Shown here in pieces: positions 27,566 to 49,025 of a DNA stretch of 64,000 nt (the stretch's first letter is position 1; each line of letters starts with the position of its first letter). The stretch covers positions 62,001 through 126,000 of the forward strand of contig JAFCMP010000553.1 in assembly GCA_017506865.1 (NCBI GenBank), written 5' to 3'. The notes below the pieces were generated by a model, which did not search any database, was not told the origin of the DNA, and worked only from the letters and a program-made list of their open reading frames with translations. Made by a program: the position numbers and the translations under genes. Source of the DNA: Tribonema minus (taxonomy: Eukaryota; Sar; Xanthophyceae; Tribonematales; Tribonemataceae).

Positions 27566-29306
27566 GGTCTACTTGTGGGTAGAGCGTGTCGTGTTGATGG
27601 GGTTGATGGGATTTCAAAGTTCAAAGTTCAAGTAGATGTTGAACTACGACCAAGCGAGTTGGCCATTCCCACGAAACTAATGTACGAGCAACAAAAAGTG
27701 TGTGCGTGGGGGGGACGTACCGCATTGATGCAGCACGGCAGCGCCAGTGCAACGCTCACAAAACACTTTCTTGTTCAAAACTTTGTTGCGCGCTGAAGCC
27801 CAATTAGCTGAGCACTGACCAGCTTCTTGACCGCTGTGCGCATCTGCAACGCCAGCCAGCTATCGATGAAGGAAGCTCATCTCGCACGACACTCACTGAT
27901 GGCATGTGCAACACGCGCTCTGATCCCTTCTTGCAGAAAAGCGGCGGCCAGCTCTGATGCGGTTACTTAAAGGCGATGCGCTGCCAGTGAGTGAGGCTGC
28001 ACTGGCTGGCTCGGAGCGCGTGCGACGCACATGTGGCGGCAACCGCGCATGGCCAGCGGCCGTGCATTGCACAACACTTGCCAAGTCCGCATAGCATGGG
28101 CTCATGCGCCTGTGTGGCTGCTATGAGGCAACGCGCTGAGCAATGCTGCTGTACCTGAGTGCTGCTGCGCAGCACGCACCTCCAGCCGCTCCAGCATTCG
28201 CACCCCAATGACGTCGCACCGCATGTTGAATCACAGCGCTCAGTACTCTGGCGCGGCGTACTTACCCTTCAAGGCTGCGCACTCAGGCTGAGGCTATGAG
28301 TAGTACTCTGAGGCAGAGCGTTCAGCAAGACTGCCAGAGCTGACCGTTGATATAGTAGTCTAAGACAGACAACAGTACACGCACATCAGACCCCAGCAGA
28401 CCAACCCAAAGATGCCGTGCGCCCTGCACAAGAGCAGCGCTCAGCACTCGTGCAGCTACTTCAAGTCTCATGCGCTGAGCAGTTGCCCTGCCTGTGTCTG
28501 AGCTGCGGAGACGACCAACTTGCATTGAGTACCGATTGGTGGTGGAGTTTGTGGCATGCAGCGCATAATTTGCAGCTGGTGCAGTGCCAGCGCACCTTTG
28601 CTGGCAAAGTTGAAGAGTATGGGGGTATCTGCTCCAGAATGAGTAGGGCCAGCATCAGCTATAGTTACCTGCCTACTGTGTGTGTGACTTACCTTTTACT
28701 TCAACTCAGCAAACACTGGGGCTAGCTCATCAACACACATGCAATGTGACATCGCTGTGCGGCCATGTTGAGCAATTGTGACACAAACGGTACAGCTGGG
28801 AAACAGGTCAATGACATGTCATCGATTCGTGCCGCCAATTGTAACTATGATTGATCTCCATGATGCAATGCGAAACCACGAGCAGCATTGCACTTGACAC
28901 ATGCCCATACCCATGCCTAAAACTCCAATACCGCCATACTGACAGTGTACGCATTGCGAGCATTGAAAGCGGCATCAGCAGCACATACAGCAACAGCATG
29001 ACTCTGACACAACTTCATCTCGCACAAGCTGCAAGCGCCAACACATGTCCATTTACTACATGCAAGCTAGCGTGCACTGCCTAGTCTATGAAGCAGCTAA
29101 CTGCACACACAGGCACAGGTATGTATGTATGCGCAGGCATCATGTACCTGAGAGAGCATGTACCGTACCCTCACGCAGGCTACTCACCAGGCCACACCTG
29201 AGATGGCATGTATTCTCACCAGGGCCGCCGCTATCCTGATCGCTCACGTCCTCCTCGGCAAAGCCCCAGCTATCATCATGGACAACGATGGATACGTCAT
29301 GGTGGC
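27566..29306. other. array spacer between A5 and A4
   Basis: 27600-27700 is the A4 upstream block. 27800-28480 carries degenerate exon-edge copies of the 13-exon gene (for example CCAGCCGCTCCAGC near 28180). 28500-29306 is the common spacer, with donor blocks GGTGAGTAG (minus) near 29180. A hydrophobic fragment MLALLILEQ (minus, about 28650) recurs in diverged form in sibling spacers. No gene is supported. Confidence 0.5.
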
Positions 29307-30977
29307 TCAGTTGAGCTCTGGGAACCCATTGGCACGTGCCCAATCCGCTATATCCTGATGGCCTTCTTCCTCGGCAAACTCTATAGTGTGCTCACCCCAG
29401 GGACACCCGTTGGCGCGCGTCCACTGCAGCACCTCCAGGTGACCCCCCCTGGCAGCGGACTCGCATGTACGGCTGTCCCAAGGGCAGCCATTGGCGCGCG
29501 CCCACTGCAGCACCTCTAGATGCCCTCCCTCCGCAGCGTAGCTGCATGTACGCTCGTCCCATGCGGCCCCGTTGGCACGTGCCCAACGCAGGATGTGAAG
29601 ATACTCGTCTTCCGCTGCACGGAAGCATGTGTCCACATCCCAGGGGCACCTGTTGGCGCGCGCCCACTGCAGCACCTCCAGGCGCCCCCACCCCGCAGCA
29701 CAGCTGCACGTTTTCTCGTCCCAGGGGCACCCGTTGGTGCGCACCCACTGCAGTACATCTAAGTGCCCCCCCTCCGCAGCGGATGAGCATGTGCTCTCAT
29801 TCCAGGAAAACCCGTTGGCGCGCGCCCACCGCAGTACCGCATGGTGCCCGCCGCCAGCTGCGGATGCGCATGTGGACGCATCCCAGGAACAGCCGTTAGC
29901 ATGTGCCCACTGCAGCACCGCAAGATGCCCCCTGCCCGCAGCGGCCGAGCAGGTCTCCGTGTCCCAGGGGCAGCCGTTGGCGCGTGCCCACTGAAGCACA
30001 TCAAGACGCCCGATCCCCGCAGCGGCCGAGCAGGTTTCCGTGTCCCAGGGGCAGCCATTGGCGAGCGCCCACTGCAGCACATGTAGGTGCCCCCCTTCCA
30101 CAGCATAGCTGCATGTTTTGTTATCCCAGGGACACCCGTTGGCGTGTGCCCACTGCAGAACGGCAAGGTGCCCCCCGCGCGCAGCATTGCTGCATGTCAA
30201 CGCGTCCCAGGGACACCCGTGTGCACGCGCCCACTGCAGTACTGCAAGGTGCCCGCCGCTCGCCGCGGACGAGCATGTGTACTCATCCCAGGGACACGCA
30301 TTGCCGCGTGCCCACTGCAGAACTGCAAGGTGCCCTTTTGCTGCGGCGTACATGCACGTGTAAGTATCCCAGGGGCAACCGTTGGCGCGCGCCCACTGCA
30401 GTACCGCAAGGTGACCGCCGCTAGCCGAATGTGCGCATGTGCACCCGTTCCAGGGACAACCGTTGGCACGCGCCCACTGCAGCACCGCAAGATGCCCGCC
30501 TTGCGCGGCACTTAAGGTCGTGATGCCGTCCCACGCGCAGCCGTCGTGGCGAAGCCACTGCAGGACCTCGAGCTGACCGCCTTCCGCAGCAGCTTCGCAC
30601 CACATAATCTCATTTTGATAGCGGCAATGCTGTCGCAGCCACTGCACCATCTGCAGATGTCCCCTCTCGGCAGCGATCTTGGCGTGCCGCGGCAGCAGTT
30701 CTGTCGCGTGGGTGCTGCGGAGCTGCAGCAATGCTGCCATATCGCCCCTGCCGATGCACGAGGTCTGCGCCATTTCAGCAGCCATGCCGTCCTGCACTGC
30801 CCACTGAATCAGGCTGGTGCTGCCGACAGCATCGGCCGCCACGGTCTGGTGCTTTCGTGGGGCCGGACCGTGCTCCAAGATATCGTGGAAGGTGCGGCAG
30901 GTGCTCTGGCCATGAGCGTCGGAGGCAAGAAACCCAGGACATCGGGGGCGACGCTCAGGATCGGATTGGCGGCCATG
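29307..30977 (-). CDS. F-box-like/ankyrin-repeat protein A5, longest copy, N-terminal frameshift
   Basis: This copy has about 15 Cys-rich 27-residue ankyrin repeats, the longest in the window. The family start MAANPILS is present at 30977 and reads through VAPDVLGFLPPTLMAR. One base is then missing relative to the paralogues (ATGGCCAGAGC, where siblings have an extra base), so the conserved STCRTFHDILEHG continues in another frame. The long frame can instead begin at an upstream ATG at 30995 (MSEVINHGRQSDPERRP), which replaces the first F-box helix by unrelated residues. Either the F-box part is lost and the repeat protein is still made, or the gene is a young pseudogene. It ends WARANGFPELN. 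Confidence 0.75.
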   Translation of the reverse strand, partial: HGRQSDPERRPRCPGFLASDAHGQSTCRTFHDILEHGPAPRKHQTVAADAVGSTSLIQWAVQDGMAAEMAQTSCIGRGDMAALLQLRSTHATELLPRHAKIAAERGHLQMVQWLRQHCRYQNEIMWCEAAAEGGQLEVLQWLRHDGCAWDGITTLSAAQGGHLAVLQWARANGCPWNGCTCAHSASGGHLAVLQWARANGCPWDTYTCMYAAAKGHLAVLQWARGNACPWDEYTCSSAASGGHLAVLQWARAHGCPWDALTCSNAARGGHLAVLQWAHANGCPWDNKTCSYAVEGGHLHVLQWALANGCPWDTETCSAAAGIGRLDVLQWARANGCPWDTETCSAAAGRGHLAVLQWAHANGCSWDASTCASAAGGGHHAVLRWARANGFSWNESTCSSAAEGGHLDVLQWVRTNGCPWDEKTCSCAAGWGRLEVLQWARANRCPWDVDTCFRAAEDEYLHILRWARANGAAWDERTCSYAAEGGHLEVLQWARANGCPWDSRTCESAARGGHLEVLQWTRANGCPWGEHTIEFAEEEGHQDIADWARANGFPELN

Positions 30978-30995
30978 ATTGATTACCTCACTCAA

Positions 30996-32310
30996 AGTGA
31001 AATCTAGAGAACTGTGGGGACCGCGCGCGCCCCTATTGCTGTCTGTCCTGCGTCCGTCCTTCTTTAATATAAAACACCAAGTTCAAGAGGAAGTACAGCT
31101 AATAATAACGGGTTTTGCGAACACACACACCACGTGTCAGTCAGTCAGTCAGTCTTGTCCGTCAGTCAGTCAGTGGTCAGTCAGTGTCAGTCTGTGTCTG
31201 TCATCCTCATGTCTTCCATCCAAACTTAATCAATATTATTCCAATAGCGCAAACGTGACAACAACTGCAGCTGCAATATGAGTCCCGGCACTGAAGCTTC
31301 AGTGCTCAAGCAGCTGGCCAGCACCACTTGGTGCAAGCAATCAGCAGGTGTTCAGTGCTCAAAAGTAAGTACGGCAGACGCAAACAGACAGATGTCAGGG
31401 AGGAAGACTCATCACAAACATTAGTTTACATTTACAACCAGTGGGTCTGCAGAAAGCGCCAGCTCACCGTCAACAGCTACAGAGAGAAGGCCACTGGCAG
31501 CCATCATCATTCACTGCATCAATGCACAAACCAACGCTGAGTCTCACAAAACATGTCCCATGTGCACGTCACCTATTTCTGATGTTGAATCTCCGCCAGC
31601 AAAGGCTACACAAGTGCTGTTCAATGACATGGAACGTGCAACTATCTGGTCCTACTTGTGAGTCAGGGCTCATTCTGTGCATGCCCCGAGCTGCCAGCCT
31701 CCGCCAGCGCTGCAAGAGCGGCCCATCTGCCAGCCCTGCAAGAGGCCTCGTGGTGCTATCTGTGTACGTGGCCGGACAACCATGGCTCGCTGACCTTTAC
31801 CAAACTCAAGCCCACTGCATGAAGAGCTAGTACACAGTTGGCTGGATTGTCTTGCAGGTGCACCCGATGTTGAGCACTGCTGGTTGATGTGGGAGCGCTG
31901 CCGCCGCAGTTCTGTCCCAGTCACAGCACTGTGTACAACTGTGTAGTAATGCTCCTTTTGGCAGCGCTGCTGATGCTCCTTTGCTGCCAGGGCGCAGCAG
32001 CAGAAGAAGTGGCAAAGGGGCACATAGTATACTGCCGTTGCCACCCTCTTGAACACCCGCCGCTCCACCCAGATGAGAAGCAACCCCAGAATATGGGCAA
32101 TTGTCTCAACGCGAACACCCCAAAGCTTCATGTAGTCAGGGACCCCCATGACACCCTACCAAGTGGAGGCCGAAGATCCCTGCAGCGGCCGCACGAAGGC
32201 GATACGCGGCAATTGCCCCAGGGCACCGCCCAAGTTGAACGGACTACTAGGGCTGCGAGTCACTCAATGCTCAATTACAGCGAGGGCTAGGGCTGGTGCT
32301 AGAGCTAGGT
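30996..32310. other. intergenic region between A5 and the 13-exon gene
   Basis: The region holds a GTCA microsatellite (31137-31190) and an AT-richer stretch (31040-31260). No ORF has recognisable content. Confidence 0.5.
31137..31190. repeat. (GTCA)n microsatellite
   Basis: Runs of GTCAGTCAGTCA are interrupted by TTGTCC and GG. It lies about 160 bp upstream of the A5 start. Confidence 0.85.
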
Positions 32311-32952
32311 CTAGAGCGAGACGACACCATCCTCATCCTCTTCGTCCGCGCACGCAAAGTCGCGCATCAGCGCGGCGTGTGCGACCTTCGCCTGCGCCGC
32401 GATCGCGCGCGCCTCGCGCTCTTCCTCATCGAAGCAGTGCTCTAGACTGTCACCGCTGCCGCCGCTGCTCTCGCGCCCTTCCGCAGGCATCGGCGGCGCG
32501 ACGAAGGCGCTCGCGCGGCGGCCGCGCACCGCAGCCGCACGCGCGCGTGACAGCGCCGCGCTGCCGCTGCCAAGCGACGCCACGCTGCCGCCGCCGCCGC
32601 CGCCGACGCTGCACGGTGAGCCGTGGCCTGACCCCCCTGGTGACCCCCCCAGCCTCTCCACGAGGTTTAGGGGGTCGTCCAAGAGCAGCAGCGAGGCGGC
32701 GGAGCCGACAGAGTGGGGCGTCCCTGAGGCATCCAAGTTGAGGTTTGAGTTGAAGTTTGAATGGACGTCGTCGCCAACCTCCACAAGCGCGGGCACCTCA
32801 CCGCCGGACCGTGGCAGCGCGTGAGCACTGCTGTCAGTGCTGCCGCCGGCAGAGTCTGCGGCGTCGAAGGCCGGCAGGTCGGCGGTGATGGTGAGGAAGC
32901 GGCCGCGCTGCTCGTAGTGGCGTACGGGGGCGCGCGGCGTGAGCGCAGTATT

Positions 32953-32983
<31 letters not shown>

Positions 32984-35900
32984 GCGGCGGCCGCGCGAGG
33001 CCCCTGGTGGTAGTTGGAACCGCCGGCGCTGCGGCAGGATGGAGGCAGCAAGCGCAGTTGAAGATGTGTTGCTGGATGATGTTCATGAAGCGAGGTATGC
33101 TGGCATGCAAATGGAAATGTTTTTGTAACCAGTACCGTACATGATGGCGATTAAGACCCCCACATGGTTTAGGGTAGGGGATGGTGATTAAGGGAGGGGT
33201 TAAAGGCCATGTCATAGGCGCTGGGCAGCAAACAAACGCTAAGACGGGGGGCACATGGAATAAGACCCCCCCCCCATGTGTAAACATGCACACTGTGCCC
33301 ATCATGCCTCACTCAAACCGAGTGAGAGGCCCGTAGACCATGTTTCATACGAAAGCAAGCTGAGTTTCATTGTGTACCTCAAGTCCAGGCACCTTATACA
33401 CCCACAATCTGATCTGGTAGCTGTAGCTCAACCCGAGGTTCTACTTCAAGTAACCATTGAAGTTCAGAGTTCAGAAGTTTTTTTGTGGGTGTGTGCGGTC
33501 TGTCGCATAGCGAGAGGCATCATGGCGGTGGCACTGCTACTGCTCGCGATATGCGCGGGCAAACCGCAGAAGAACATTCACGCACTCCGTGTGCGACAGC
33601 GTGCACAGACCGAATAGTTCTATCAATTTTCTGCCACAACGTGAATCTAGCCATCGTCTGGCGTCAAGCTTGGTGCGTTGCGTGTTTGGACCCCGGCTTA
33701 ATGCCCATGATCTAGCATCTCGTCGTGCCGGAGACGCTAAGCCGGCGGGTACATAGTATAAGACGGGCTTCCCTAGCATTATGCGACGCATTCGGCCCTA
33801 AAAGTGCTAGACGGGGGGGTCTTAATCGCCATCATATACGGTATGTGCTTTCTTACATTCGCTGTCTACTGGTGCTCTGCAACCAATCCAAGATGCAAAG
33901 CAGGAGCTGTACCCTTGTTGCGCAGATGATCAAGTCACTAGTGTCACTAGTGCACTGGTTCAACCTCAGTGTTGCGCTCTGAACCACAAGCGGTTACACC
34001 CCACTCACCCCCATGTTGCGGCCAGCGCGGGCGGTGCAGCGGCGCGCTGCTGCAGCTGTGGCGCCCCAGCTAAGTATGCTGCAGCCCTGAAGGGCAAGAA
34101 GGCGATCACCTCCTTAAGCGTTGTGCACACGGTCATGAGCGGGCAGGGGGGGCCATCGTCGCCCTCCGCAACATCGCTGAAGTGGTAGATGTCATACGCG
34201 TTCGTCGTCGTGACCTGCGATAAGCAGAGAGGCGGGGGAGGCGGGGGGGGGGGGGGGAGGGGGCATGCTGCGTTCATCAGATCTGGCTTAGAAATTCCAA
34301 AAGAAAACTGCAGCAGCAGCTCAGGCACTTCTGGTGACACCGCTCTCAATCTAACTTTTCAACCCACCAACCGCAGCTGGTTGAGCATTGTGCACACAGT
34401 CACCAGAGGGCAGGAGGGGGGGTGTTGCAGGGGGTCTTGCCGGACTAGTAGACGTTTTGTGCGATCATCACTGCAGCCTGCCGGTGGGACAGCAACAGCA
34501 GGCCTGAGCTCACGTCATCGGCAATGCTCAGCAGCGTGGAGTTCAAGTATGCAGGTATGGCGCATGTCATCGGCAGTACTCAGCAGTGAGGTGACGAGTC
34601 ACCACACGAGTCAAGACTCATCCAGACTCACTCACCGTGAGCGTGAGGCCGCTGGCGGCGAGGCGTATCGGCGGCGGCGCGATGCGCGTGGCCTTGATAA
34701 GCACACCCTCGCCGCCAAACAGGTCCTGCACGATGAAGAACGAGTCGCCGCCGCTTGCGGTGCGGCTAGCCGCATGCAGCGCGCGCCACACGCAGCGCCC
34801 GACGTACGCCCTCTCTGCAAGCCCCTCGACGTTGAACCCCCCTGTCTGAGCAGTGCTGATGCTGCTGCTGTTTGCAGCGTTGGTGCCGATCAGCGGGGAA
34901 CCGGGAACGGATGTTGCACGCGCGCGGTGTGTCGACTCGGGCTCGCTCTCGGAGCTCGAGTCGCACTCTGAGTCGGAGGCGATCTGGCACAACTGCAGCA
35001 GCAAAAACAGAAAAGGCGGGCGAGGTGTTTGACTATGTGCGAAAGCTCAAGCCCTGGCCTAGAATGCTCACAATGGCATGGAATACGGAGAAAGTATGTG
35101 TGCGAAGACCCCTCTACTGATTCCTGCAGTATGGGTGCCTGCACGTTGCAATGTCAGGGCTAGATGTAGCAGGTGTGGCCACAGTGCAGAGACAAAGGGC
35201 CAGCATTGCAGTAGAAGAAGCACGCTTCAGCTGCACCACAAGCTCAGTGTCCAGCTCGTGGCACCACGCAGCAGCCGCAATACACCCACTGTGTCACGAA
35301 AGGTTGATGCTTCACATGCAGCGAACATTGCTTCAGGCGTAACGCATAAGGCAGCAATGAGGCATGCCCCAGCGCGTCTCACCTGCACTACATGCATGCC
35401 CCTATCCGAGGGCCGCCGCGGACCCCTCGGCGAAGCGGGCCGCCGCCGCGGCGAGTCCAGTTCTGCGGGAACGTGCATGGAACCGTCCCCGCCCTCAGGA
35501 ACGGTGCTCATGCCCGGCGGGGCGCGCGACAGGGGGGTCGTGACGGCCAGGCTGGGGGGGTTTCGGGGGGCTGCGGGGCCCCCTGCTGCGTCGGTAAGCG
35601 CTGCTGTGACGATGCTGCGGAGCGCTTCCACGCACTGCGCGGGCGACATGTCGTCGCCGTTCACGACAAAACTGCAGGCAGGGGTGGGGGGCGGAAGAGG
35701 GGCCGGGGGGGGCATAAAGGGTGAGTGTAATAGAGCATCTTTAGCGCCAATTGTTGAGGTGCAGCGCTGCTGTCCAAAGCGCTTGTTGCTGTGAAGCGCT
35801 GCCATGCACTGTGCGGGCGACATGTCGTCACCGGTTGTGACAACCTGACATCGACGTCATGAATTGACGCATGTTGCCAGACTTGGCAGTCAAGTCTCAA

Positions 35901-38900
35901 TTATTGGCTCTCTCAATGATGCCGTGAGAGACAACCGCAGCTCCACATCACACTCAACATCTTCCTCCTCCTCACATGACCCAGATGTCAACATAAACAT
36001 CATCATTTCATGTGCATTCGTAAACTGCCCATCTCCTCATTCACCTCCGTGTTGTCCATTTGCTGCCCCAGATCATATGCGGTGTTGTCAGCGTCCTCCT
36101 CACATAATTCCACCTACCCAGGCTGAAAACCGGCATCATGATCTTGTGAGCAAGTACTTCGAGGTTATTGATTTTGAAAAAAAAAAAAAACTTTCATTAT
36201 GAATGTGAATCCCTCACCGCTCCCGATTGACATCCTTCAATGTCTGCCCTACGCTGAAGTCGGCAAAATGTGGTCGTGTCCACCAATAATTCAAACGATG
36301 TCTTCCCTAATTGAAAGCACTTCCAATAAAAAAATTATGAACAATATTTGCGATATGTCACAATGGCATTGACTGATAGTAACGCACCGGTCTCTGTTGA
36401 TGTCTTTCATCATCGACACGACATCAAACTCGGTATCGTGCTCCTCACCGTCGAGCGCATTGACGGGCAGCTCAATGCATTGACGGGCAGCTCAATGTAC
36501 TTTATCTCCTTAAGATGGAAGTACTTTGAATTACTTGACTTGTGAATGATTTTCCAAGAGTGTGACGGCACGCACTAACAGTAACGCACCGCTCACTGTT
36601 GATGTCTTTCATGGTCTGCCCTATGCGGAGCGGAAGTCAGTGTCCCACTTTTGCCGCCGAGTGTACCTATGAACTCATTCTGAGTGAAAAGCATGATGAA
36701 CGTGAATCGTAACCCACCGCTCTCTGTTGATGTCTTTCATCGTTTGCCCCACATCAAACTCGGAGTCGTCCTCCTCATCGTCAAGTGCATTGACGGGCAG
36801 CTCAATGTCGGTCAGCAGCGGCCGCAGCGACTGGAACACCAGGAGGAAGTGCTCAGCGCTCTGGTACACCTGCACACACATAGAGAGAGAGCGGGATGCA
36901 CGACAGGGCAGCGTGCTGTGTGAGCATTATGTTTTGTTGTCGTGGTGCTCTTCCTTGAAGACCTTTTCACATGGCAGAGTTGAAAAACGGAATGCGAACA
37001 AGTAGAAAGTCCAAGGACAGTCGCATAAGGCGAGAAAGCACTCAGCACTCTGGTGCACCTGCACACAGAGGGGGGGCGGGGGGGGGGGGGGGGGGGGGGG
37101 CAGATGTTAAGCAGCAGCACGTGGAGTTCTGCGCAGAGGCAGCAGCGGAGTGCAGAACTTCATTATTGGCTGCTGATTCGCACAGACCGGCAACGTCACG
37201 CACGCAGCCGCAGCAGAATTCTGGCGCGTAGGCAGGTCACCTGCACAGCGGCGGGGGAAGAGAGAAGGTCCTCGGAGAGGGTGCACCGCAAAAATAAAAT
37301 TGCATTTGAAGTACTTCTTGAAGTACTTTGTTCTTGTTAATAAACCAAAGCATGTGCACATACATGTGTATACCTACATCGGATCACGTTGCAAAATGAG
37401 CGTATTGTGTTTCTGCCAATAGATCATGAAGCACAAGTAACAGCGTTGAGTGCTGACCTGACTTTTGAGCCGGAAGCGCAGGTCCCTGTCGACGCAGCGC
37501 AGCAGCGCCTCCGTCGCGCCATGAGCGAGAAGTAAGAAAAAGTACTTTGTTCTTGCGTAAACAGAAACAAAGCACGTGCACGCATGTACCTGCATCGGAT
37601 TATGTTACAAGATAAGCGTATCGGGTATCTGTCAATACATCATGAAGTACGGCTTGTACACGTTACTATGTGAAAAACAAAACGGCGTTGAGCGCTGACC
37701 TGGTTCTTGAGCCGGAAGCGCAGGTCCCTGTCGACGCAGCGCAGCAGCGCCTCCGTCGCGCTCGCGTGGTACAGTATCTGCGCGTTACAATTTAGCATAA
37801 TCAACTTGTTTTAAAACAAATGAAAAGTACAAAAGTGACGCTGCCGAGCGCTGACCTGGTTCTTGAGCCGGAAGCGCAGGTCCCTGTCGACGCAGCGCAG
37901 CAGCGCCTCCGTCGCGCTCGCATGGTACAGAATCTCCGCGTTCTGCCGCAGCCACGACGCAAACTCCAGGACGAGTGGCCGCAGGAAGGTGGCGGCGTTT
38001 TGCGCGGGCGCCATCCACACGCGCGCGCGCGCCTCGTAGTCTGCGACGATCTTGTCCACTACCGTGCGCACCTGCATCCGATGAGTCATAGGTTGCGCAA
38101 AAGTGAAGTGAGGTGATGGCGGTGGTATTGAGGTGTAGTGTATGGGTGAGCTTCATACCTAGACTACATATACCTAAGAGCCAGGATTTGAGCGTTCTGT
38201 GCAGGCGCCGTCCACACGCGCGCGCGCGCGCTTCATAATCTGCGACGATCTTGTCCACCACCGTGCGCACCTGCGACGTAGGTCGCGCGAATGCAAAGGC
38301 AGGCGATGGTGGTGCCAGTGGGTGTTGAGCTTCATCATAGTGAGGTGCCTACGTATACCTAGGTACTAGAGAGGGCAGGGGCGTATTGTGTGGGCGCCTT
38401 CCACACATGCGTGCGCGCGCCTCGTAGTCTGCAGCCTGTCCACAACCGTGCGCACCTGCAGTGCCAGCCAGCCGTTGGTGGCGGGCTTGAATGAGGCAGG
38501 AGTGGTCGGTTTTGGAGTAGAGTGTGAGGTGAGCCTAGCATACCTGCCTACACGTCGAATTAAGGGTGTGTGTGCACTTGCAGTTGGAGACAATTCAAAG
38601 CCACCACGACAAGCACCGGCAGCGCCAACCACCCGCCGCCTAACCGTTAGTTTTGTCAGCAGATGGAAAGCGGCGCCATCCACACATGCGTCCCACGACG
38701 TAGCCTGCAATGATCTTGCCAGCAGCCGTGCCTCATAGGTCATGCAGATGTGAAATAGGGTGCGGGTGGTGTGCGTCAGACACACTGCAAGGTGAGCCTT
38801 GCAGACCTACTTGCGCCTGATATAAGAGTTAGACGTCCTGCGCAGGCGCCGTGCACACGTGCGCACGCGCCTCAATATCAGCAACGAACTTGTTTCTTCC

Positions 38901-41900
38901 TTTCCTTAGGCTCAGAGCTCACCATAAGGTCACTTTCAGGCAAAATGTTGAGCAAGGCTGCAACTGCTGAGCAGTGCTGTAGTCGCAGACCAGCCCTCAG
39001 AACTTAGTCCCTTTACTTCAACAAGGCGCGCTGAGCAAGGCTGCAGCAGCCTGTAACTGAGCGCTGCCACGTCAAGGCGACGCGCTGAGCGATGTGGCAG
39101 CAGCAGCAGCAGCTGAGCACTGCGGCAGCAACTTGAAGGCTGCGCTCTCGGATCCCTGTGTGTGCGGCTGCTATGAGGCAACGCGTTGAGCGATGCTGCT
39201 GTACCTGAACGCTGCTGCAGCACGCGCCTCCAGCCGCCCAGCAGGCGCACCCCGAGGGTGTCGCAGGCCATGCAGAACAGCAGCGCTCAGCACTCTGGTG
39301 CGGCAACTTCCAAGTCTGCGCTCTCAGATCCCTTATGAGGCTAGAGCTTTCAGTAAGGCCGCAAGAGCTGAGCGTTCAAGCCGTAGACGGATTTGTCCGA
39401 TTTTGTCAAGAGCACACGCACCGCGGGCCCGGCAGGCGCACCTCGAGGATGTCGCGCGCCATGCAAAAAGGCAGCGCTCAGCACTCGTGCAGCTACTTCA
39501 AGTTCTGATGCGCTGAGCAGTTGTTGAACGAGGCCGCAACTGTGCTGTGGTCGCAGACGACCAGCGCTCAGCACCTAGCTCCCTTACTTCAATATGGCGC
39601 GCTGAGCAAGGCTGCCGAGCGCTGTACTTCAAGGCGAGGCGCGGAGCGATGTGGCAGCAGCAGCAGCAGCTGAGCACTGCAGCAGCACGCACCTCAGGCC
39701 CCAGCAGGCGCACCCCGAGGATGTCGCAGGCCATGCAGAAGAGCAGCGGCGGCAGCAGCGCGCGCGCGGGGCGCTGAAGGGGTAGGTATTCCCCCGCGCA
39801 CGCTGTCCACGCGCGTAGCAGGCCCTCGCAGCGCAGGGGGTCCACGAGAAGGTCGTTGCCGTCGGGGCCCTGGCCGGAGTGAGCGACGGTTACGGCAAAG
39901 ATTTCAGGAGGTCTGGTGCATTGTACACTAGCCAGTCATTTGAAAAGTGTGTGCTTTGAGATACATATGCTCGTGACAGGCCCTCGTAGCGCAGCGGATC
40001 CACAAGCAGGTTGTTGCCGTCGGGGCCCTGGCCGGAGAGAGAAAACGATGCACGGCAAACAAGATCAGAAGGGCCCACGAACAGGTCGTTGCCCTCCGGA
40101 GAGAGCGGCGATGTAGGACAAAGGTTCAAAAGGGCTGGTGCTTTGTACACTTGCCAATGCTTTCAAGAAGTGTATGCCTCGAAATTTACATGGTCGTAAC
40201 AGGCCCTCGCAGCGCAGCGGTTCTGCACACAGGTCGTTGCCGTCAGGGCCCTGGCCGGAGAGAGCGACACTAATATCGTCACGATATAGGGCAAAGATTC
40301 AAAAGGGCTGGTGCTTCGTACACTAGTCTAGCCAATTCTTTGAAAAAGTGCATGCTTCGAAATTTATACGCGCACAGCAGGCCCTTGCAGCGCAGCGTGT
40401 CTACGAGCAAATTGTTGCCTTTTGGACGCTGGCAGGAGAACTGATACTTCAAAGTATGCAAGTATCATACTTAGTATGATGCTTGAAGTTGCTACAGCTG
40501 GTTCTGATTCATAGTCATTTATGAAGTTACCATCGCCAGCTCTACAAAGGTGAGCAAGTCAGAGCAGCAGGTCAAATAGTGCCATAAGGAGACAAGTTGC
40601 AGTTGCAGTTGTTGAAGGCAGCACTTTTCCAGCAGGCCATGTATTAAGGTGGTAGCCTTAGAAGTATACGCGGTTGTTGATCTCGCAGCCTCACCTTTGC
40701 TAGCTCCTGGAATGTCTTCACAAAGTACCCCAGCCTGAAGTTCAGTTCTTCGGTGGCCATCTGCGGCTGCGGCGCGCCGGGGACACGCCCCCCCGCCACC
40801 CCCCTGGGGCTGATGATACCCTGATCATCGCAGCGAGCAAGGGGGTCACGGGGGATCATGTGAGGCGTCATACTCTAAACCCTAGTTGTGACCTGGTCCT
40901 CACCCTACGTGAGGAGTCGCACGCCATAGCCAAACCACCCAAGTAAAACTAGTCAGTACCTTGATCCTTTTGCGTCAAGAGGCTTATTGTGGCCTGCGGC
41001 GCTCTAAGCAATGAAGTCGTCAGAGGGCGTGGGGGGCGGGGCAGCCCATGAACATTGCAAAGGTGCGGCTGGACCTGCGGCTAGGGGGCACCTCACCACC
41101 GGCACCGTCGTTGTAATATACTTCAACTTCGAAGTTTACCAATATACTACTGTTCTTTGAGGTATGTATAGTATGCGTGTATAGGCCGGTGGCGTACTCA
41201 CCATAGGTACCCGGGGCACCGAGTGCGGCAAGCTAGATAGCAGCGGCGTAGCATATACCGATGCCAGCACTACATCAATTGCTGCGCTCATGCCCTCTGT
41301 ATCAAACGCTGACCACCGAACTTATGCCAACACCCATGGTGCTTCCTGTCAGGTCACTGCCGCACGTTGTGCCAATGTACATGCCAACATACATGCACCT
41401 CGCCTGTACCGTCCGGCGCCACGTGCGCGCCACGCCATTACGTGCCAGTACGTTGATTTCCTCTTGAAGCTATTGCTCCCGATCGTTTGGCGGCTTTTTC
41501 GCACCCAGGACTGGACTCAACAAAGGTACTAACTTCAAAATATGACTTAGCTACATACATACGCCTAAAACGACTCAAGAAATGCGCTCTATGTCATGTG
41601 CTCATACCTGCGTGCATGCACCCTACCTGTACCGTCTGGCGCCACGTCTGCGCTGCGTCATGACGCATGCCACCACACATTGAGTCCTCTTGTAGCAATC
41701 GCTCTTGATGATCATTTCGGCTTTTTGCGCCCAGAATGTGACTACAAGTACATGGGCAACTACTTCAAAACATGATCCCACCTTTGTGCGAGAATCCCAC
41801 CCAGAACATGATTAAAGACATGCACTATGTATGATCATACCTACATGCATGCACCCCACCTGTATCGGCTGCCGCCACGTCCGCGCTGCGTCACAATGCG

Positions 41901-44900
41901 TGCCAAGGCATTGACTCAAGTCGTATCAATAGGACAGTTCTTGAAAATTTGGGCTTTGTTGCGCCCAGAATGCGTCTAGAAAAGGTACTACTTCAAACTA
42001 CAATCATACCAACATACACGCACCCTACTTGTACCGTCTGCCGCCACATACGCGCTGCGTCAAAACGCGCGCCAACACATTGACTCCTCTTGCAGCGCTC
42101 TCGATCATTTCGGCTTTTTTGCGCCCAGAACGCGACTCAGATTGACATTCCCACTTCAAATGTGATCATACCTACATGCTTCAAAGTACACGATGAACCC
42201 CACCTGTACCGTCTGGTGCCACGTGCGCGCTGCGTCATAACGCGCGCCAACAATTGACTCCTCTGGACCGCGACTAGAGTAAGTACTACTTCAAAATATG
42301 ATCATACCTACATGCATGCACCCCCCTTACCTGCACCGTCTGGCGCCACGTGCGCGCCGGCATGGCGAGCGCCAACACACTGGCTCCTCTTGTAGCAACT
42401 GCTCTCGATCATTTCGGCTTTTTGCGCCCAGAACGCGACTCAAATTGAACAATTCTCACTTCAAATGTGAGCATACCTACATACCTCATGTATCATCATA
42501 CCTACATATATGCGCCATACCTGTACTGTCTGGCGCCACGTGCGCGCCGGCATCGCAAGCGCCGTGCCGCGCAGGAACGTCTCCAGCTTGATCTGGTGCA
42601 GCATGCGCAGCCGCGGCCTGCCACCACTGAGCGCAGGCGCCGCCGCCGCGCCGCCCTGCGCCAGCTCAAACTGCGCAATGCGCTCGAGTATCTGCAGTGG
42701 CCGAGGGGAGCGAGGGGCGCCGTAAACAAGCGGTGATAAGCGGATTGGCAAGCAGTGATAAGGCACACGGCCTGCCTCCGCCCAGCGCAGGCGCCGCCGC
42801 GGCGCCACCTTGTGCCAGCTCAAACTGCGCGATACACTCCAGCATCTGCGGAGGCCGAGGTGAATGAGAGGCAATCAACGACCTTTCTTTGCGGATTGAC
42901 AAACGGTAATAAGCAGGTTGGCAAGCAGTGATAAGGCCCGCGGCCTGCCGCCGCCGCATAGCGCAGGTGCTGCCGCCGCGCCGCTGCTGCCCTGCGCCAG
43001 CTCAAACTGCGCGACACGCTCCAGTATCTGCCGGTGGCCAAAGTGAGCGAGGGTCACCGTCAACAACCTATCTCTGTAATTGGCAAGCAGTGATAAGGCA
43101 CGCGGCGTGCCGCCGCCCAGCGCAGGCACAGGTGCTGCTGCTCAAACTGCGCAATACGCTCCAGTATCTGCAGTGGCCGAGGTGAGCGAGGGGAACCGTC
43201 CTGTGCAGTTTGACAAGTGGTACTGGCTGACGCGATGCGGTCCGCGCCAGCTCAAACTGCGCAATGAGATAAAGTATCTGCGCAGCGGGCGCGATTGAGG
43301 GGCACCGTTCACAACCTTTCCATGCACTTTCACAAGCAATGTTGGGGGGTGGAGAGTGGGCACGCGACTGGCCTGCGCCGGGTGAAAGTACGCAATGCCC
43401 TTTGTATGTAAGCGCTAAATGTGACCCTGACCATAACCCTAAGTAGTGATAAATGGACCTACATGCGGGCGAGCCCAATCAGCGACGCCGTAAGGACTGA
43501 GCCATGCACGACACGCAGCTGACGCGGACAACAGACAAAACGATCATTGGCTGATGCCAAGGGCCGGCGACGCAACCCCATTCGGGCCTGACACCAAGTT
43601 GACGTTGTGGTGAAGCACCTCAGACTCTACTTGCAGTTGTGGGCGGCTACCTGCTGTGAGCACAACTTGCACTTTTGACAAAGCACCTACTGTGATGTGA
43701 AGTTGAACTTGTGGTGAAGACGCACCTGCCGCAGTACCAGGTTGCAGTTCTCCTCGTGCGTGGCGGTGGTATTGAGGTTTGTCTGGTACAGCCGCAGTGC
43801 GTACGCATCACTCGTTTCGCCGGGCAGTCTGCTCCAATCTGTGACACGACGCGGTACATGTTGAAGTTCAACTTGATGTCGCATAGCTACGGTACCAGTA
43901 TAAGCCGCAGACAACATCACTTGTGGTGATGACGCGCAAATTGGAGCAAACTGTAATGAGTCCTTGCAGCGCGAGTACAGTTGCATGCTACACGACATGA
44001 GTACACCTTGTGTACATATGAAGTACGGTACATACACTGTACACCTTGGGTACACATGCCACAAGAGGCCATCAGAGTGTTGCACGAAACACCTTCGCAA
44101 ACACCAATGCATACACATATCGGAGCTTTTGCGGCACTGTCTGCAGTCGTGGCATCCGAATCAGCACCTCTCGCAACTCGTGCGCGCAGAACAGCCTCAA
44201 ATCTCACTCAGCCAGATCAGTCTGTTGAAACTGTAAAAACACCACTGGGCTCCACGCACGGCAGCTGCACCTGTGCCTGCCTATGCTGAGGGTAGAGCCC
44301 CCTCCCCCGGATTCTGTCGCGTACAAAGCGAAACTTTCGACCCAGTCCACAGTGGGCAACGATGCTACATCCTGTCAGCACCGCCTGCCAGACATGACCG
44401 CCGCACCGGGCTAGCATCTAAACTAAACTCTTGCGCCAGACACGTTGCGCCAGTGTGTTGCGCCAGTTGCGCCAGCTGCCCCGGCAAGTGACTCGTGGCG
44501 CAACTGGCGATACTCGCACGTTTACTCACGAGTATTACTCACTACTCGCGAGTTTACTCGCGAGTCTTGCCTAGGGTTGGTGCTTTAACTAGGGTTAGCC
44601 ATGCCCCTAACCCTAACCCTAGTCCTTATGTAAGCTGTATGGGCCTTGATAGTGACTGAAGAAGCACTAGAAGCCTTAATAGAGTTGCGCCAGTTGCGCC
44701 ATGGCTAAACTAGTTTAGCCGGGGCTCGAAACCCAAAGTCAGTTGCGCCAAGGCCGTCTGAGTTTAGACGCTAGCCCTGCCGCCGCAGCTGCTGCTGCAA
44801 CTGCTGGCACGCCACTGCAGCCTGATACTTCAAGTGCGCTCTCTACTGACCCATCTCTCACCCGAACCCTAACTTCAACCCTCTTTACCTGCAATGAAAA

Positions 44901-47001
44901 CTTCCTCGCCCTCCTCATCGCTCCCTTCCACACCTCCGCCGCTGCTGCCATAGTCGCTGGCGCCCACGCCGCCGCTGCCGCCGCCGCTGCCGCCGCCGCC
45001 GCCGCCATTCTGGCGATCTGGAGTCGACACGGCCTTCGTCTGCGGCTTCTTTATTAGGCCGATGTGGTCGCTCTCGCAGAACAGAGGGCCCTGGGCGTGG
45101 GGCGTCACCACTTCAACTGCGCTCGGCAGGGCCGACTCCACTTCCGCGCCGAGGTCCTGAGGGCGACGGCAGCAGCGATCGGCAGCGATCAACACATGGT
45201 CAGCGTAGCGCGTGGGGCAGTAACATGTGGCTTTGCTGTTTCCACAAGAAACCTGCGATTTGATTGTGAGGGCCTTCTGGTGCAATTGGCATCATGTTGA
45301 AGTTAGTGTTGAGGTTGGCGTTGGGGTCATGCGCGGCTGAAGTCGTCGCAATATAGACTTCTGTAGTCTAAAGACGCTCTGGCAGCGGCATACTCTGGTA
45401 GTGTACAGAAGAAAATGCCCGTTTCTTGGTGGCAGGAGTCTGTTGCCAGAGTCACCGCACGTCAGGTCACATTATTTGCATTCTGTACAGCAGCAGCCAC
45501 TGCAACCGCAACTGCGTGCAGCATTTCTGAGTCCTTCAGGTTGGTCATACTACGCCCGGCAACAGAGTCTGTCGTGAAAGTATGCAGTTGATGCAGCGTT
45601 CCGCTCAATCTGACACAGTTTGCAACATCAACACAAGTTCTCCTGAAAAGTAGAAGTTATGTGAAGGAAGATTTGTGTACATCAGCATTAGTGCTCAGCA
45701 AACTTGAGCTGCTGAAACCACACGCCGTCAAATGGCGCGCCTGACTCATTCGCGTGCTGCTGCGAGAATGCAACAGCGCCGGCTCTCGACTCGTAGCCCT
45801 CGTGAAGTTTGGACTGAAGCTTTGGGAGCAAAGGGCACTAAGTGAGCCACCGTCCCACAAAATTTACCTGTAGAAGCGCTGCGTTGGACCCACCTGCATT
45901 GAAGCTCTACGAGACACGCTGCTGTGGCCGGTTTACGGTGTACATCCCGAGCCCGCCTGACATTGTCTTTCAGAGATCGGAGCGCTGTGGCCAAGCACGC
46001 ATCGCGCTGCTCGCAACGCCCGCTGCTGTCGCTCAGCTCGCGGCCTGTCCCCAGACCGCAAGCTGACCCTGGCGCTCATATGGACAGTCCATAAAACACA
46101 GAAAAAAAATCACACTGCAACTCCCATGCGCGCGGCGACGCACCTCCAGACGGGGCGGCGGCGTGCGCGACCGCCGCCGCGGCGCCCCCCCTTCCCCCTG
46201 CTCCCCCTCCTGCCCCCTGGAACCCCCCTCGCCGCCCTGCCGCAGCGCCGCCGTCGCCTGCTCCACCGGCGGAGGCGCCGCCTTCTGCAGCCTGAGCCCC
46301 ACGGGCCCCTCTCCGGGGTGCGACAAGTGCCTAGGCCGGTCCGGACTCGGTGGCTCCGTCGCCGCCGCGTCCTTGGCCTGCCTCTGCTGCATGGCTGCGC
46401 GGAACTCGGAACGGGAGGGGGGGGAGGGCAGGTCGAAGGCTTTCCCCCCTGCGGTGGCATCAGACGACTCCAGCTCGTCGTCGTCGCTGAGGCAGGGGGT
46501 CCGGCCGTGACCGCAGCTGCCGCTGCCCAGAGTAGATGCGAGGTCCCCCGTGGAGCTCTTGAGGGCTGCCTCCGCCATGGCCCTCAGCCTGGCCCTGCGC
46601 TTCTTCTCCAGCTCCCGCTTGTAGCGCTCTGGGGTCATGCTGGTTGCCCCTGCCTCGTCTGCGGACTGCACTCGCCTGTGAAGGCCGGCGGTCGTGTGGG
46701 GCCTCTGGTGCTGTGATTTTTTGGCCTGCTCGGGTGTTGCATGCCGAGGAGCAGGCGTGACCTCCGCTGCAGCAGCTCCAGCAGCGGCAGCCGTGCTTAC
46801 AGCTGCTTTCACCCAACCCAGCCAGCCTCCTGCGGCCTGTGCTGCTGCCGGTGGCTCCGCTTTGTTCGCTGTTCCTGTTCCTGCAGCTGCCTGTGCTGCT
46901 GCAGGTGCTGCTGCGGCTGCCACTGCTGGCTCAACGTTGCCAAATGCTGCTGATCGAGCAGCTCCCACGCTGCTCGCTCTTGCCGCGGCCTCTGTAGCCA
47001 T
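32311..47001 (-). CDS. 13-exon gene for an uncharacterised, largely helical protein (about 1290 residues)
   Basis: Exons on the minus strand, 5' to 3': 47001-46144, 46036-45894, 45235-44889, 43838-43726, 42691-42521, 40820-40695, 39869-39693, 38071-37856, 36869-36718, 35671-35383, 34992-34636, 34214-34009, 33028-32311. Codon phases agree at all twelve junctions and the total is a multiple of three. The first acceptor (GCGAG) is weak, so the exon 1-2 join is the least certain. Exon 1 is Ala/Pro-rich with a basic helix (ERYKRELEKKRRARLRAM). The middle is helical: DWSRLPGETSDAYALRLYQT, ILERIAQFELAQ, MATEELNFRLGYFVKTFQEL, MACDILGVRLLGPE, VRTVVDKIVADYEARARVW, and QSAEHFLLVFQSLRPLLTDI followed by the acidic LDDEEDDSEFD. 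The C-terminal third has YVGRCVWRALHAASR, FFIVQDLFGGEGVLI and a tail ending EDEDGVVSL. No signal peptide, membrane segment or enzyme motif is seen. I do not recognise the family; a scaffold or trafficking role would be a guess. Its introns are full of exon-edge copies. Confidence 0.72.
34380..34425 (-). repeat. intronic copy of an internal piece of exon 12
   Basis: GAGCATTGTGCACACAGTCA followed by a GGGCAGGAGGGGG-like run repeats exon 12 text at about 34115-34155 (CGTTGTGCACACGGTCATGA then GGGCAGGGGGG). It is one of many local exon-derived copies in this gene. Confidence 0.6.
35785..35850 (-). repeat. intronic copy of the 5' edge of exon 10
   Basis: The minus strand reads GACATGTCGCCCGCACAGTGCATGGC-like text encoding DDMSPAQCMAALHS. 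It duplicates the start of exon 10 (DDMSPAQCVEALRS at about 35655) about 150 bp upstream. Confidence 0.75.
36200..36660 (-). repeat. three intronic copies of the 3' edge of exon 9
   Basis: The exon 9 end (IELPVNALDDEE, then MKDINRER) is echoed at about 36215-36260, 36385-36500 and 36580-36640. The plus-strand landmark TGTTGATGTCTTTCAT recurs in the genuine exon edge (about 36725) and in two copies, and the first copy has TTGACATCCTTCAAT. The middle copy itself contains a doubled GCATTGACGGGCAGCTCAAT. Confidence 0.85.
37071..37100. repeat. G-homopolymer run (23 G) in intron 8
   Basis: GGGGGGC is followed by 23 consecutive G at 37078-37100, next to a GCACACAGAG copy of the exon 9 acceptor context. 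Such runs are prone to sequencing and replication slippage. Confidence 0.8.
37440..37790 (-). repeat. two intronic copies of the 3' edge of exon 8 with its donor
   Basis: The genuine edge at 37856 reads (plus) GCTGACCTGGTTCTTGAGCC then GGAAGCGCAGGTCCCTGTCG. The same text, including the donor dinucleotide, recurs at about 37455-37525 and 37695-37775. Each copy is accompanied by a related AT-rich intron stretch with ATCATGAAG and AAGCGTAT-like words, so the repeat unit spans both intron and exon. Confidence 0.9.
38195..38895 (-). repeat. intronic copies of the 5' edge of exon 8
   Basis: The genuine start of exon 8 (plus CTTGTCCACTACCGTGCGCA then CCTGCAT at about 38050-38077) is repeated at about 38215-38280 and 38405-38460, and in more decayed form near 38690-38745 and 38840-38895. 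The first two keep the CACCTG acceptor junction. Confidence 0.85.
39190..39480 (-). repeat. intronic copies of the 3' edge of exon 7
   Basis: The exon 7 end, encoding MACDILGVRLLG (plus CAGCAGGCGCACCCCGAGGA at about 39702-39722), recurs at about 39238-39275 and 39428-39470, each followed by CATGCA. Related pieces reappear in every ankyrin-array spacer. Confidence 0.85.
39970..40450 (-). repeat. three intronic copies of the 5' edge of exon 7 with its acceptor
   Basis: The genuine edge encodes GPDGNDLLVDPLRCEGL (39820-39869). Copies lie at about 39980-40035, 40200-40255 and 40378-40440, with a partial one at 40065-40110. Copies 1 and 2 keep the acceptor text CCCTGGCCGGAG, and the intron flank CAAAGATTCAAAAGGGCTGG recurs with them, giving a unit of roughly 180-220 bp. 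Confidence 0.9.
41385..42380 (-). repeat. six intronic copies of the 3' edge of exon 5 with its donor
   Basis: The genuine edge (42521-42560) reads, plus strand, CTGTACTGTCTGGCGCCACG, encoding ARTWRQTVQ. Copies lie at about 41402, 41630, 41865, 42028, 42205 and 42333. Each keeps the donor-exon junction (AC before CTG, in one case ACTTG) and is accompanied by CATGCATGCACC or TTTCGGCTTTTTGCGCCCAG intron words. Confidence 0.9.
42800..43300 (-). repeat. four intronic copies of the 5' edge of exon 5 with its acceptor
   Basis: The genuine edge (about 42660-42700) reads, plus strand, CAGCTCAAACTGCGCAATGC then CTCGAGTATCTGCAG. Copies lie at about 42818-42858, 42998-43032, 43138-43175 and 43248-43285. 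All keep GCTCAAACTGCGC, and at least three keep the TATCTGC or CATCTGC acceptor junction. Confidence 0.9.
44420..44760. repeat. TTGCGCCAG repeats, ACTCGCGAGT palindromes and short CCCTAA run
   Basis: TTGCGCCAG-like words occur at least six times (44431-44480, 44690-44750). Between them lie tandem near-palindromes built on ACTCGCGAGT (44520-44570) and CCCTAACCCTAACCCTAG near 44608-44626. The region is intronic in the 13-exon gene. Confidence 0.65.
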
Positions 47002-47911: not shown

Positions 47912-49025
47912 TCAAGTCTCCTCATCGCTTGGGTCCTCATCGCTGAAGTCGCCACTACCGCCATGAGAGGCGTACGAGTCATCATCAGATGTCTCACCCT
48001 CTTAGGGCTCGGGGCACCCATTGGCACGCGCCCACTTCACCACGCGCTGCTCTCCTGCTCGCTTGGCACGCACTATGGTGTCACTGTCCCAGGGACACCC
48101 ATTGGCACGGGCCCACCGCAGCACTCTCAGGTGGCCGCATTCGGCAGCGAAGCTACACGTTACCTCGTCCCAGGAGCAGTCATTGGCGCACGCCCACTGC
48201 AGCACCTTCAGGCGCCCCCCTGCCGCAGCATAGCTGCATGTGGACGCATCCCAGGAACAGCCGTTGGCGCGTGCCCACTGCAGGACATCTAGGTACCCGC
48301 CGTGTGCAGCCTGTGCGCACGTCCACTCGTTCCAGGGACACCCGTTGGCGCGTGCCCACTGAAGCACATTAAGACGCCCACTACTCGCAGCATAGCCGCA
48401 TGTTTTCTTATCCCAGGGGCACCCGTTGGCGCGCGCCCACTGCAGCACCGCAAGGTGCCCGCCGCCAGCCGCGCTTGAGCATGTGTACATGCTCCAGGGA
48501 CAACCGTTGGCGCGCGCCCACTGCAGCACCGCAAGATGCCCGCCTGCCGCTGCAGCCTCGGGTGTGTCCGGGTCCCAGTTGCTGCCGACCTGGCGCAGCC
48601 ACTGCAGCACTGCAAGCTGACCGCCTTTCGCAGCAGCTGCGCACAGTTTGGTTCTCTCGTAAACGTTGTGGCGACGTTCTCAGAGCCACTGCACCAGCTG
48701 CAGATGTCCCCTCTCGGCAGCGATTTCGGTGTGCCGTGTTCGTAATGCTTGTCGCGTGGGTGCTGCGGAGCTGAAGCAATGCTTCCAGATCGCCCCTGCG
48801 GATGCACGAGGTCTGCGCCATTTCGGCATCCATGCCGTTCTGCACCGCCCACTGAATCAGGCTGGTGCTGCCGACAGCATCCGCCGCCACGGTCTGGTGC
48901 TTCCTTGGTGCTGGACCACGCTCTAAGACATCGTGAAAGGCGTGGCAGGTGCTCCGGCTCATCAGCGTGGGAGGCAGGAAAGCCAGGATATCGGCGGCGA
49001 CGCTCAGAATCGGGTTGTCCGCCAT
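47912..49025 (-). pseudogene. F-box-like/ankyrin-repeat gene A6, three lesions
   Basis: It starts MADNPILSVAADILAFLPP at 49025 and follows the family through CIRRGDLEALLQLRSTHAT. It then shifts frame (SITNTAHRN) in a segment that differs from all siblings. The ankyrin frame resumes, but the Arg codon of QWLREH is TGA (CTCTGA for CTGCGA, near 48688). Several repeats later CPEP is followed by TAA (48002-48004). Beyond this stop the same frame continues as ETSDDDSYASHGGSG then DFSDEDPSDEET to 47912, matching the C-terminal acidic tail of A7. So the stop is premature and the tail is ancestral. Confidence 0.85.

Follow-up and report, generated by a model that had tools for sequence, protein, structure and literature searches.

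The window, that is, the whole stretch of 64,000 nucleotides of Tribonema minus DNA analysed here, contains a minus-strand gene running from 47001 to 32311. The gene has 12 exons (the initial annotation had counted 13) and 1216 codons, and a single open frame extends across its 11 introns. Homologues of the 1216-aa protein were found in brown algae and in Chrysoparadoxa (PX-clade ochrophytes), and comparison with one of them set the acceptor of exon 5 at 40820. No Pfam match was found for the gene (the search was made with a 1196-aa model, before exon 5 was extended by 60 bp upstream), no Rfam match was found within its region, and a scan of viral contigs revealed no relatives of it. In addition, a search of its own genome for a paralogue useful for dating gave weak matches only (C550:74568, C550:465320, and C54:161124).

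Copies of exon edges in the introns

Each exon edge (45 bp of exon and 10 bp of intron) was locally aligned to its own intron, and a copy was accepted only if its score exceeded the best of 200 shuffled queries. Finally, we found 25 intronic copies at 9 of the 22 internal exon edges (Table 1), and a self-BLAST of the window agreed with this list. When this gene was scored by the more stringent rule of the genome counts, which demanded E 1e-6 and an alignment reaching 12 bp or more to either side of the edge, 6 of its 22 edges had copies. The initial annotation had reported such copies in many introns, and our list is close to it: the acceptor edge of exon 8 was added, the acceptor edge of exon 6 had four copies instead of three, and a case placed at exon 12 was not recovered as an edge copy. 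No copies were found at the acceptor of exon 5. Duplication at nearly every junction, as had also been claimed, does not describe a gene with copies at 9 of 22 edges, nor the very uneven occurrence among genes.

Table 1. Positions in the window of the gene, its relevant exons, and the copies of exon edges
Feature	Positions	Strand	Remarks
Gene, 12 exons, 1216-aa protein	32311..47001	-	open frame and homologues
Exon 4 (exon 5 of the initial annotation)	42521..42691	-	source of both large arrays
Acceptor-side array, exon 4	42802..43281	-	4 copies: 42802-42855, 42986-43038, 43140-43177, 43244-43281
Donor-side array, exon 4	41403..42373	-	6 copies: 42325-42373, 42202-42230, 42020-42055, 41850-41886, 41617-41653, 41403-41431
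Exon 5	40695..40820	-	without edge copies; acceptor 40820 (not 40760)
Exon 6 (exon 7 of the initial annotation)	39693..39869	-	
Acceptor-side copies, exon 6	39983..40438	-	4 copies: 39983-40037, 40071-40099, 40206-40260, 40384-40438
Donor-side copies, exon 6	39218..39465	-	2 copies: 39218-39274, 39415-39465
Exon 7 (exon 8 of the initial annotation)	37856..38071	-	
Acceptor-side copies, exon 7	38226..38460	-	2 copies: 38226-38274, 38415-38460
Donor-side copies, exon 7	37448..37744	-	2 copies: 37690-37744, 37448-37502
Exon 8 (exon 9 of the initial annotation)	36718..36869	-	
Acceptor-side copy, exon 8	37032..37067	-	1 copy; absent from the earlier list
Donor-side copies, exon 8	36215..36621	-	3 copies: 36581-36621, 36379-36432, 36215-36252 (marginal)
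Exon 9 (exon 10 of the initial annotation)	35383..35671	-	
Acceptor-side copy, exon 9	35802..35833	-	1 copy

In the acceptor array of exon 4, the first three copies have a common junction, at which the exon piece runs into GCCTTATCACTGCTTGCCAA. In the donor array, a common intron sequence is joined to the terminal ~40 bp of the exon, and copies 1 to 6 are also alike upstream of their exon piece, in a sequence absent from exon 4. Because most of the intronic copies have a common novel junction, located within the exon, each of the two inspected arrays goes back to one founding duplication, which was later amplified as a unit. Thus, the multiple copies behind the idea of serial boundary duplication are real, but in these arrays they are not separate founding events.

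Among the smaller groups, one donor copy of exon 7 (37690-37744) lies within a 97-bp stretch that is 97% identical to the exon end, whereas its intron flank is ~70% identical. This stretch was predicted as an exon by our gene finder at one setting. The third donor copy of exon 8 (36215-36252) barely beats the null (score 26 vs. 24).

Occurrence in other genes and position of the arrays

The genome of 158 Mb was sampled at kinesin, chaperonin, and random loci. Outside the window gene, exon edges were taken from our own gene finder, which was partly trained on the very loci counted and was re-tuned after its first setting gave dozens of false exons. The gene finder also called decoy copies exons, and 10 predicted exons were dropped (3 + 7). 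It should be noted as a warning that gene predictors will take decoy copies for exons. Kinesin loci overlapping with 10-kb loci (L015, L017, L022, and L026) and overlapping short loci (L018, L019, L028, L030, L032, and L033) were dropped as well.

In ten kinesin genes, 31 of 160 edges had copies, with at least one such edge in every gene, and in 20 shorter, non-overlapping kinesin loci, 12 of 71 edges had them. One of the ten genes, L034, was picked after a repeated match had been noticed, and it had copies at 2 of 19 edges. Five random loci had copies at 5 of 61 edges, two of these five copy-bearing edges being within coding ankyrin repeats; without the ankyrin locus L046, the count was 3 of 53. 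The repeat of L046 is a coding ankyrin-type one (mismatches of 34, 21, and 26% at codon positions 1, 2, and 3). In two chaperonin genes (L049 and L053) taken together, 10 of 28 edges had copies, and in the remaining three none of 41, although this set was not blind, the repeated matches on C5 and C135 being known before these were chosen as L049 and L053. Furthermore, evidence free of the gene finder came from contig C51, where positions 52-88 of PF00118 were matched three times consecutively. From these counts, edge copies are common but uneven among genes: every one of the ten kinesin genes has some, and three of the five chaperonin genes have none. The copying of exon edges into introns is thus confirmed in several genes.

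Introns with an edge-crossing array had a median of 1030 bp (n = 38), compared with 587 bp (n = 70) in those without (p 0.0003), and the non-repeat bases were 566 and 538, respectively. Introns with arrays are therefore longer by about their own repeat content. The initial annotation had proposed a genome-wide way of lengthening introns; the recurrence in other genes and the extra intron length agree with it, but the effect is uneven and three chaperonin genes have none.

Duplication also occurs away from exon edges, as 23 of 77 arrays were purely intronic, yet edges are over-represented. It is quite conceivable, though we lean somewhat against it, that these are ordinary intronic tandem repeats produced by uniform duplication, whose edge copies are noticed only because conservation of the exon prolongs the time over which they can be recognised. 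Besides the purely intronic arrays, this reading can point to codon positions 1 and 2, which diverge 2-3 times less than introns and therefore bias detection to edges, and to the random loci, where 5 of 11 arrays lay at edges against 2.7 expected (P 0.1, not significant). However, the excess persisted in a masked test, in which exons were removed to equalise detection (E 1e-4, chaperonins left out, all five random loci in): arrays touched intron ends in 28 of 80 cases vs. 17.3-19.2 expected (P 0.003-0.014), about 1.5 times the geometric expectation. In addition, of the 32 arrays whose non-coding identity reached 85% or more, 22 crossed an edge (10.6 expected). The P value of the masked excess was 0.0001-0.0014 without four of the five random loci, so that the weaker excess with all five makes uniform duplication more likely and a hot-spot reading less so. 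In the latter, which we put forward only tentatively and think rather unlikely, boundaries in this lineage would be hot spots for duplications of about nucleosome length, tied to transcription, chromatin, or splicing, and their duplication would be a main route of intron growth. If this were true, the survival of copies would show the spliceosome choosing the exon-attached site among near-equal neighbours.

Divergence and geometry of the copies

Across 62 edges, the mismatch to the true exon was 7.7, 6.6, and 16.5% at codon positions 1, 2, and 3, and that in the intron part was 19.4%. Third positions had 2.3 times the mismatch of first and second positions (95% interval 1.85-2.84), and a ratio of about 2 is expected when the copy is neutral and the exon can vary only at its third positions. 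The divergence fits one-sided constraint, with constrained exons and nearly neutral copies. The divergence of the intron part was 2.7 times that of codon positions 1 and 2 (95% interval 2.2-3.3), where strict neutrality gives 2; since this is slightly above that factor, the copies may be under weak constraint. Decay with distance, as suggested initially, was not seen (Spearman rho of identity vs. distance 0.13, p 0.17, 119 copies).

The copies could also be alternative exon ends or alternative exons under selection, which we consider improbable. Such a function would accord with the divergence ratio slightly above 2, with the 97% identity of the exon 7 donor copy, and with the splice sites: AG is kept in 45 of 56 acceptor copies and GT in 35 of 48 donor copies, and the mean scores of intact copies are near those of real sites (donors 5.4 vs. 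5.8, acceptors 5.0 vs. 5.4). The arrays of decoy splice sites described in the initial annotation are supported in so far as many copies have an intact-looking GT or AG. However, this retention is about what neutrality predicts (0.81-0.86 at 7-10% decay per site) and, if anything, lower, and 22 of 104 copies have net frame-shifting gaps. Moreover, six junctions of the window gene are flanked by copies (residues 413, 470, 512, 571, 643, and 694), and in 33 of 41 homologue-junction pairs there is no gap within 6 residues of them; in the remaining 8, 1-7 residues are inserted or missing. The splice sites in the copies are probably unused, and the copies would be silent in splicing, as judged from sequence. 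Duplicated or mutually exclusive whole exons were rejected on the same frame-shifting gaps and on size, the exon part having a median of 46 bp vs. 172 bp for exons.

Units are mostly 80-200 bp long, with a median period of 137 bp. Local repeats in 41 loci (271,008 bases) were direct in 301 cases and inverted in 11, six of the latter being palindromes. In end-to-end alignments, the intron part of the unit was homologous to the matching intron segment (z at least 3) in 46 of 64 nearest pairs, and therefore the units stand head to tail; in the other 18, clear homology was lacking. The copies are thus direct, head-to-tail tandem duplications of genomic DNA spanning exon and intron, as the initial annotation had recognised. 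Retro-copies were rejected because their copied segment would be intron-free, whereas here homology continues into the intron. An assembly artefact was ruled out, as the copies are typically 10-30% diverged.

Templated insertion in end joining, or template switching, would instead copy nearby sequence into breaks. In BLAST, the copies of 29 of 34 nearest pairs with an identity of 86% or higher were separated by an unaligned gap, as such insertion would leave, but the spaced, non-tandem arrangement suggested by these spacers gave way to mostly tandem units when the introns were aligned end to end. In addition, the inverted copies expected of template switching are nearly absent. Thus, we give this process little credence. 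Dispersed elements such as Introners or MITEs would likewise repeat units within introns, but they are extremely improbable, as the units include part of their own neighbouring exon and the one array searched, the 1-kb donor array of exon 4, matched nothing in the genome beyond its own locus when searched with very common words skipped.

Proposed origin and known systems

The best explanation, and in our view a likely one, is that frequent short head-to-tail duplications are silent when they cross an exon edge and are then amplified and decay nearly neutrally. Duplications of mostly 80-200 bp would arise often in the genes of this alga, presumably from a break-repair or replication event. Wholly within an exon, such a duplication would in most cases be harmful to the protein. 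Across an exon edge, it would be silent if the spliceosome, presumably by exon definition, stays with the splice site joined to the rest of the exon, and the added copy, including its exon piece and splice site, would end up intronic. Once two tandem copies exist, the unit could be amplified by unequal exchange or slippage. The copies would decay almost neutrally while selection maintains the true exon edge, and introns would therefore gain one unit per event together with decoy splice sites. Such duplication would be a measurable source of intron growth without a transposable element. Furthermore, dozens of natural experiments with near-equal splice sites in competition could be used to test exon definition in the alga.

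Earlier work has reportedly dealt, by its title, with frequent intragenic duplication and with introns arising out of tandem arrays. Serial boundary duplication at nearly every junction was not recognised as described in the initial annotation, which did know of intron gain by single segmental duplication; a single boundary-crossing event is known from the RdRp gene of potato, where, in the passages available, a tandem duplication created a new intron (PMC4974935). As in the alga, the duplication is head-to-tail and takes in an intron-exon boundary, and a little of the former exon has turned intronic. In contrast to that account, existing introns appear lengthened in the alga, often by several copies and at many edges of the sampled loci. 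The AGGT model, in which an exonic segment supplies both splice sites, also differs, as the units here combine exonic with intronic sequence and carry a single splice site, that of the edge. In Drosophila, introns were gained through duplicated exonic sequence with a proto-splice site (PMC2891723). There too, duplicated exonic sequence becomes intronic, but the passages available concern a few cases at novel intron positions and describe no arrays of copied boundaries.

The repair of DNA breaks can leave small tandem duplications (PMC8355091), a known route to head-to-tail duplications like those in the alga, and a model is cited there in which the breaks come from nearby single-strand breaks on opposing strands; in the passages available the duplications are studied as a repair outcome, with no link to exon edges. 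Introner elements (PMC9860276) likewise shape introns strongly on a genome-wide scale. However, Introners are copied into many genes, while each unit of the alga belongs to its own exon, and the one array tested was not a near-identical sequence in the introns of many unrelated genes. Each step proposed here is a known type of mutation, and it is the frequency that is unexpected.

Exon-edge copies in the window gene and in other genes

The window gene belongs to a genome of 158.18 Mb in 554 contigs, and its 12 joined exons form a single open frame. The start of exon 5, placed by a homologue, is 60 bp upstream of that in the first model, and the corrected protein has 1216 residues; the earlier model of 1196 residues had no Pfam match. 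The search gave seven homologues, and organism names were attached to four (Chrysoparadoxa australica, Pylaiella littoralis, Scytosiphon promiscuus, and Ectocarpus siliculosus). Chrysoparadoxa is a member of the PX clade of Ochrophyta, and the organism is accordingly taken to belong to this clade.

Copies were sought by aligning each exon edge of this gene to its own intron, and those scoring above the best of 200 shuffled queries were accepted. We found 25 copies at 9 of the 22 edges, close to the list in the initial annotation, which had reported copies of exon edges in the introns of a 13-exon gene, and self-BLAST of the window agreed with this result. Two large arrays (tandem series of copies) flank exon 4, with six copies on the donor side and four on the acceptor side. 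In addition, identity in the donor copy of exon 7 is 97% for the exon part and only about 70% for the intron flank, which may reflect gene conversion or use of the copy as an alternative exon end.

To estimate the occurrence of edge copies in other genes, we sampled 30 short kinesin-motor loci and ten 10-kb kinesin stretches, located by a genome search for kinesin motor exons, five random 10-kb stretches, and five chaperonin genes. Exon edges were predicted by a purpose-written gene finder, for which the window gene and kinesin cores served as the first training set. With this set it recovered 12/12 exons of the first window-gene model at costs of 14-20, mostly with one extra prediction; after retraining on the loci, 11/12 were exact among 13 predictions. 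Of 39 kinesin matches in the ten 10-kb stretches, 36 were at least 70% covered by one cleaned predicted exon. An edge was counted when BLAST (E 1e-6, within 2.5-3 kb) gave a match that spanned at least 12 bp on each side of it and led to a copy outside exons; overlapping loci were removed. By this rule, copies were present at 6/22 edges of the window gene, 31/160 edges of ten kinesin genes (at least one in every gene), 12/71 edges of 20 short kinesin loci, 5/61 edges of five random loci, and 10/69 edges of five chaperonin genes. Two of the five edges of the random loci come from L046, which codes for an ankyrin-type repeat, and should be excluded from the count. Furthermore, all 10 chaperonin edges lie in two genes picked after the Pfam table had shown repeats there, and the other three chaperonin genes had copies at 0/41 edges. 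Without the window gene, these two chaperonins, and L046, the summed counts are 46/325 edges. Thus, edge copies are common but uneven among genes. Independently of the gene finder, the PF00118 table showed one domain stretch matched two to three times in succession on contigs C51, C5, and C135.

Origin and evolution of the copies

Local repeats within 2.5-3 kb were direct in 301 cases vs 11 inverted, 6 of the latter being palindromes (271,008 bases). The array period was 80-200 bp in 62/77 arrays (median 137, without chaperonins). In 46/64 nearest pairs, the intron segment after the exon piece was homologous over the entire unit; therefore, the copies are head to tail. Copies of the exon 4 donor array have a common upstream sequence absent from the exon itself. 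On the acceptor side, three of the four copies have a common exon-internal junction. Thus, in these two arrays, the only ones inspected, a single founding event was followed by amplification of the unit.

Under random placement of units of observed length in introns shortened by their repeats, 28 of 77 arrays were predicted to cross an exon edge, and 54 did (without chaperonins). Part of this excess is a detection effect, because a conserved exon keeps its copy visible. With exons removed, 28/80 arrays reached an intron end vs 17.3-19.2 expected at E 1e-4 (P = 0.003 and 0.014 at two detection limits), and 25/67 vs 14.4-16.0 at E 1e-6. Therefore, a moderate excess of about 1.5-fold persists. 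In the random loci alone, with exons unmasked, the edge excess was not significant.

For a neutral copy of an exon whose first two codon positions cannot change while the third is unconstrained, divergence at position 3 and across the intron part is expected to be about double that at the first two positions. Over 62 edges, each used once with copies averaged and L046 left out, divergence was 7.7, 6.6, and 16.5% at positions 1, 2, and 3, and 19.4% in the intron part. The position-3 ratio of 2.3 (95% interval 1.85-2.84) fits neutral copies. The intron-part ratio was 2.7 (2.2-3.3); because it is slightly above 2, there may be weak constraint on the copies or faster intron change. Net frame-shifting gaps occurred in 22/104 copies. 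Splice dinucleotides were intact in 45/56 (AG) and 35/48 (GT) copies. Retention at this level does not exceed that expected from neutral decay, so as a class the decoys show no sign of being maintained. Ten of the 13 changed donors, which are not independent (three are from one array), read GC, perhaps by mutational bias or selection against decoys. Decay of copies with distance, also proposed in the initial annotation, did not hold, as identity and distance were not correlated (rho 0.13, p = 0.17, 119 copies).

Other features of the introns and the window

TTAGGG-type telomere-like repeats were observed in introns of the sampled loci L034-L043 and L047 and of the window gene. TAGGGTTA occurred 42 times in 73 kb of intron vs 0.84 expected by base composition, and was absent from 24.7 kb of exons. 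TTGAAGT/ACTTCAA words were present in both orientations in the same introns, in intergenic DNA of the window, and in random loci. Their density per kb was 1.52 in introns and 0.16 in exons, compared with 0.48 in the non-gene part of the window and 1.02 in four random loci.

In the window, adjoining ORFs with integrase, reverse transcriptase, and C5 cytosine DNA methyltransferase (PF00145, E 1.7e-21) domains look like an LTR retrotransposon with a methyltransferase. An open frame of 2124 codons matches reverse transcriptase only weakly (29.0 bits vs the cut-off of 29.6) and is perhaps LINE-like. A cluster of related open frames has ankyrin-like repeats of type HLAVLQWARANGCPWDEETC (one was scanned against Pfam).

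Positions of features in the window
Feature	Position	Strand
Window gene	47001 to 32311	-
Exon 4	42521-42691	-
Exon 7 donor copy	37690-37786 vs 37846-37942	
Telomere-like repeats (example)	44580-44640	
LTR retrotransposon-like ORFs	54679-62635	-
Perhaps LINE-like open frame	15576-21950	-
Ankyrin-like open frame	8642-9733	-
Ankyrin-like open frame	14358-15398	-
Ankyrin-like open frame	23597-24940	-
Ankyrin-like open frame	26621-27568	-
Ankyrin-like open frame	29307-31082	-
Ankyrin-like open frame	48002-49052	-
Ankyrin-like open frame	50894-51964	-

Intron length, mechanism, and known duplications

Median intron length, taken over the window gene and the ten kinesin and five random loci, was 1030 bp with a boundary-crossing array (n = 38) vs 587 bp without (n = 70; p = 0.0003). 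The non-repeat parts were similar (566 vs 538 bp), and local repeats made up 20% of intron bases.

Staggered-break repair or replication slippage would fit the duplication step. PMC8355091 credits Pol alpha-primase action at break ends with small tandem duplications, and it cites a model based on single-strand breaks close together on opposite strands. For the step to be silent, the exon-attached splice site would have to win over its copies, and intact splice-site copies score nearly as high as the exon-attached sites. The median exon length of 172 bp and the GC content of 71% in exons and 56% in introns would agree with exon definition.

By titles and abstract openings, in literature mostly outside subscription papers, we recognised no report that describes arrays of exon edges as widespread in a genome. 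A single duplication crossing an exon-intron boundary has already been published (PMC4974935).
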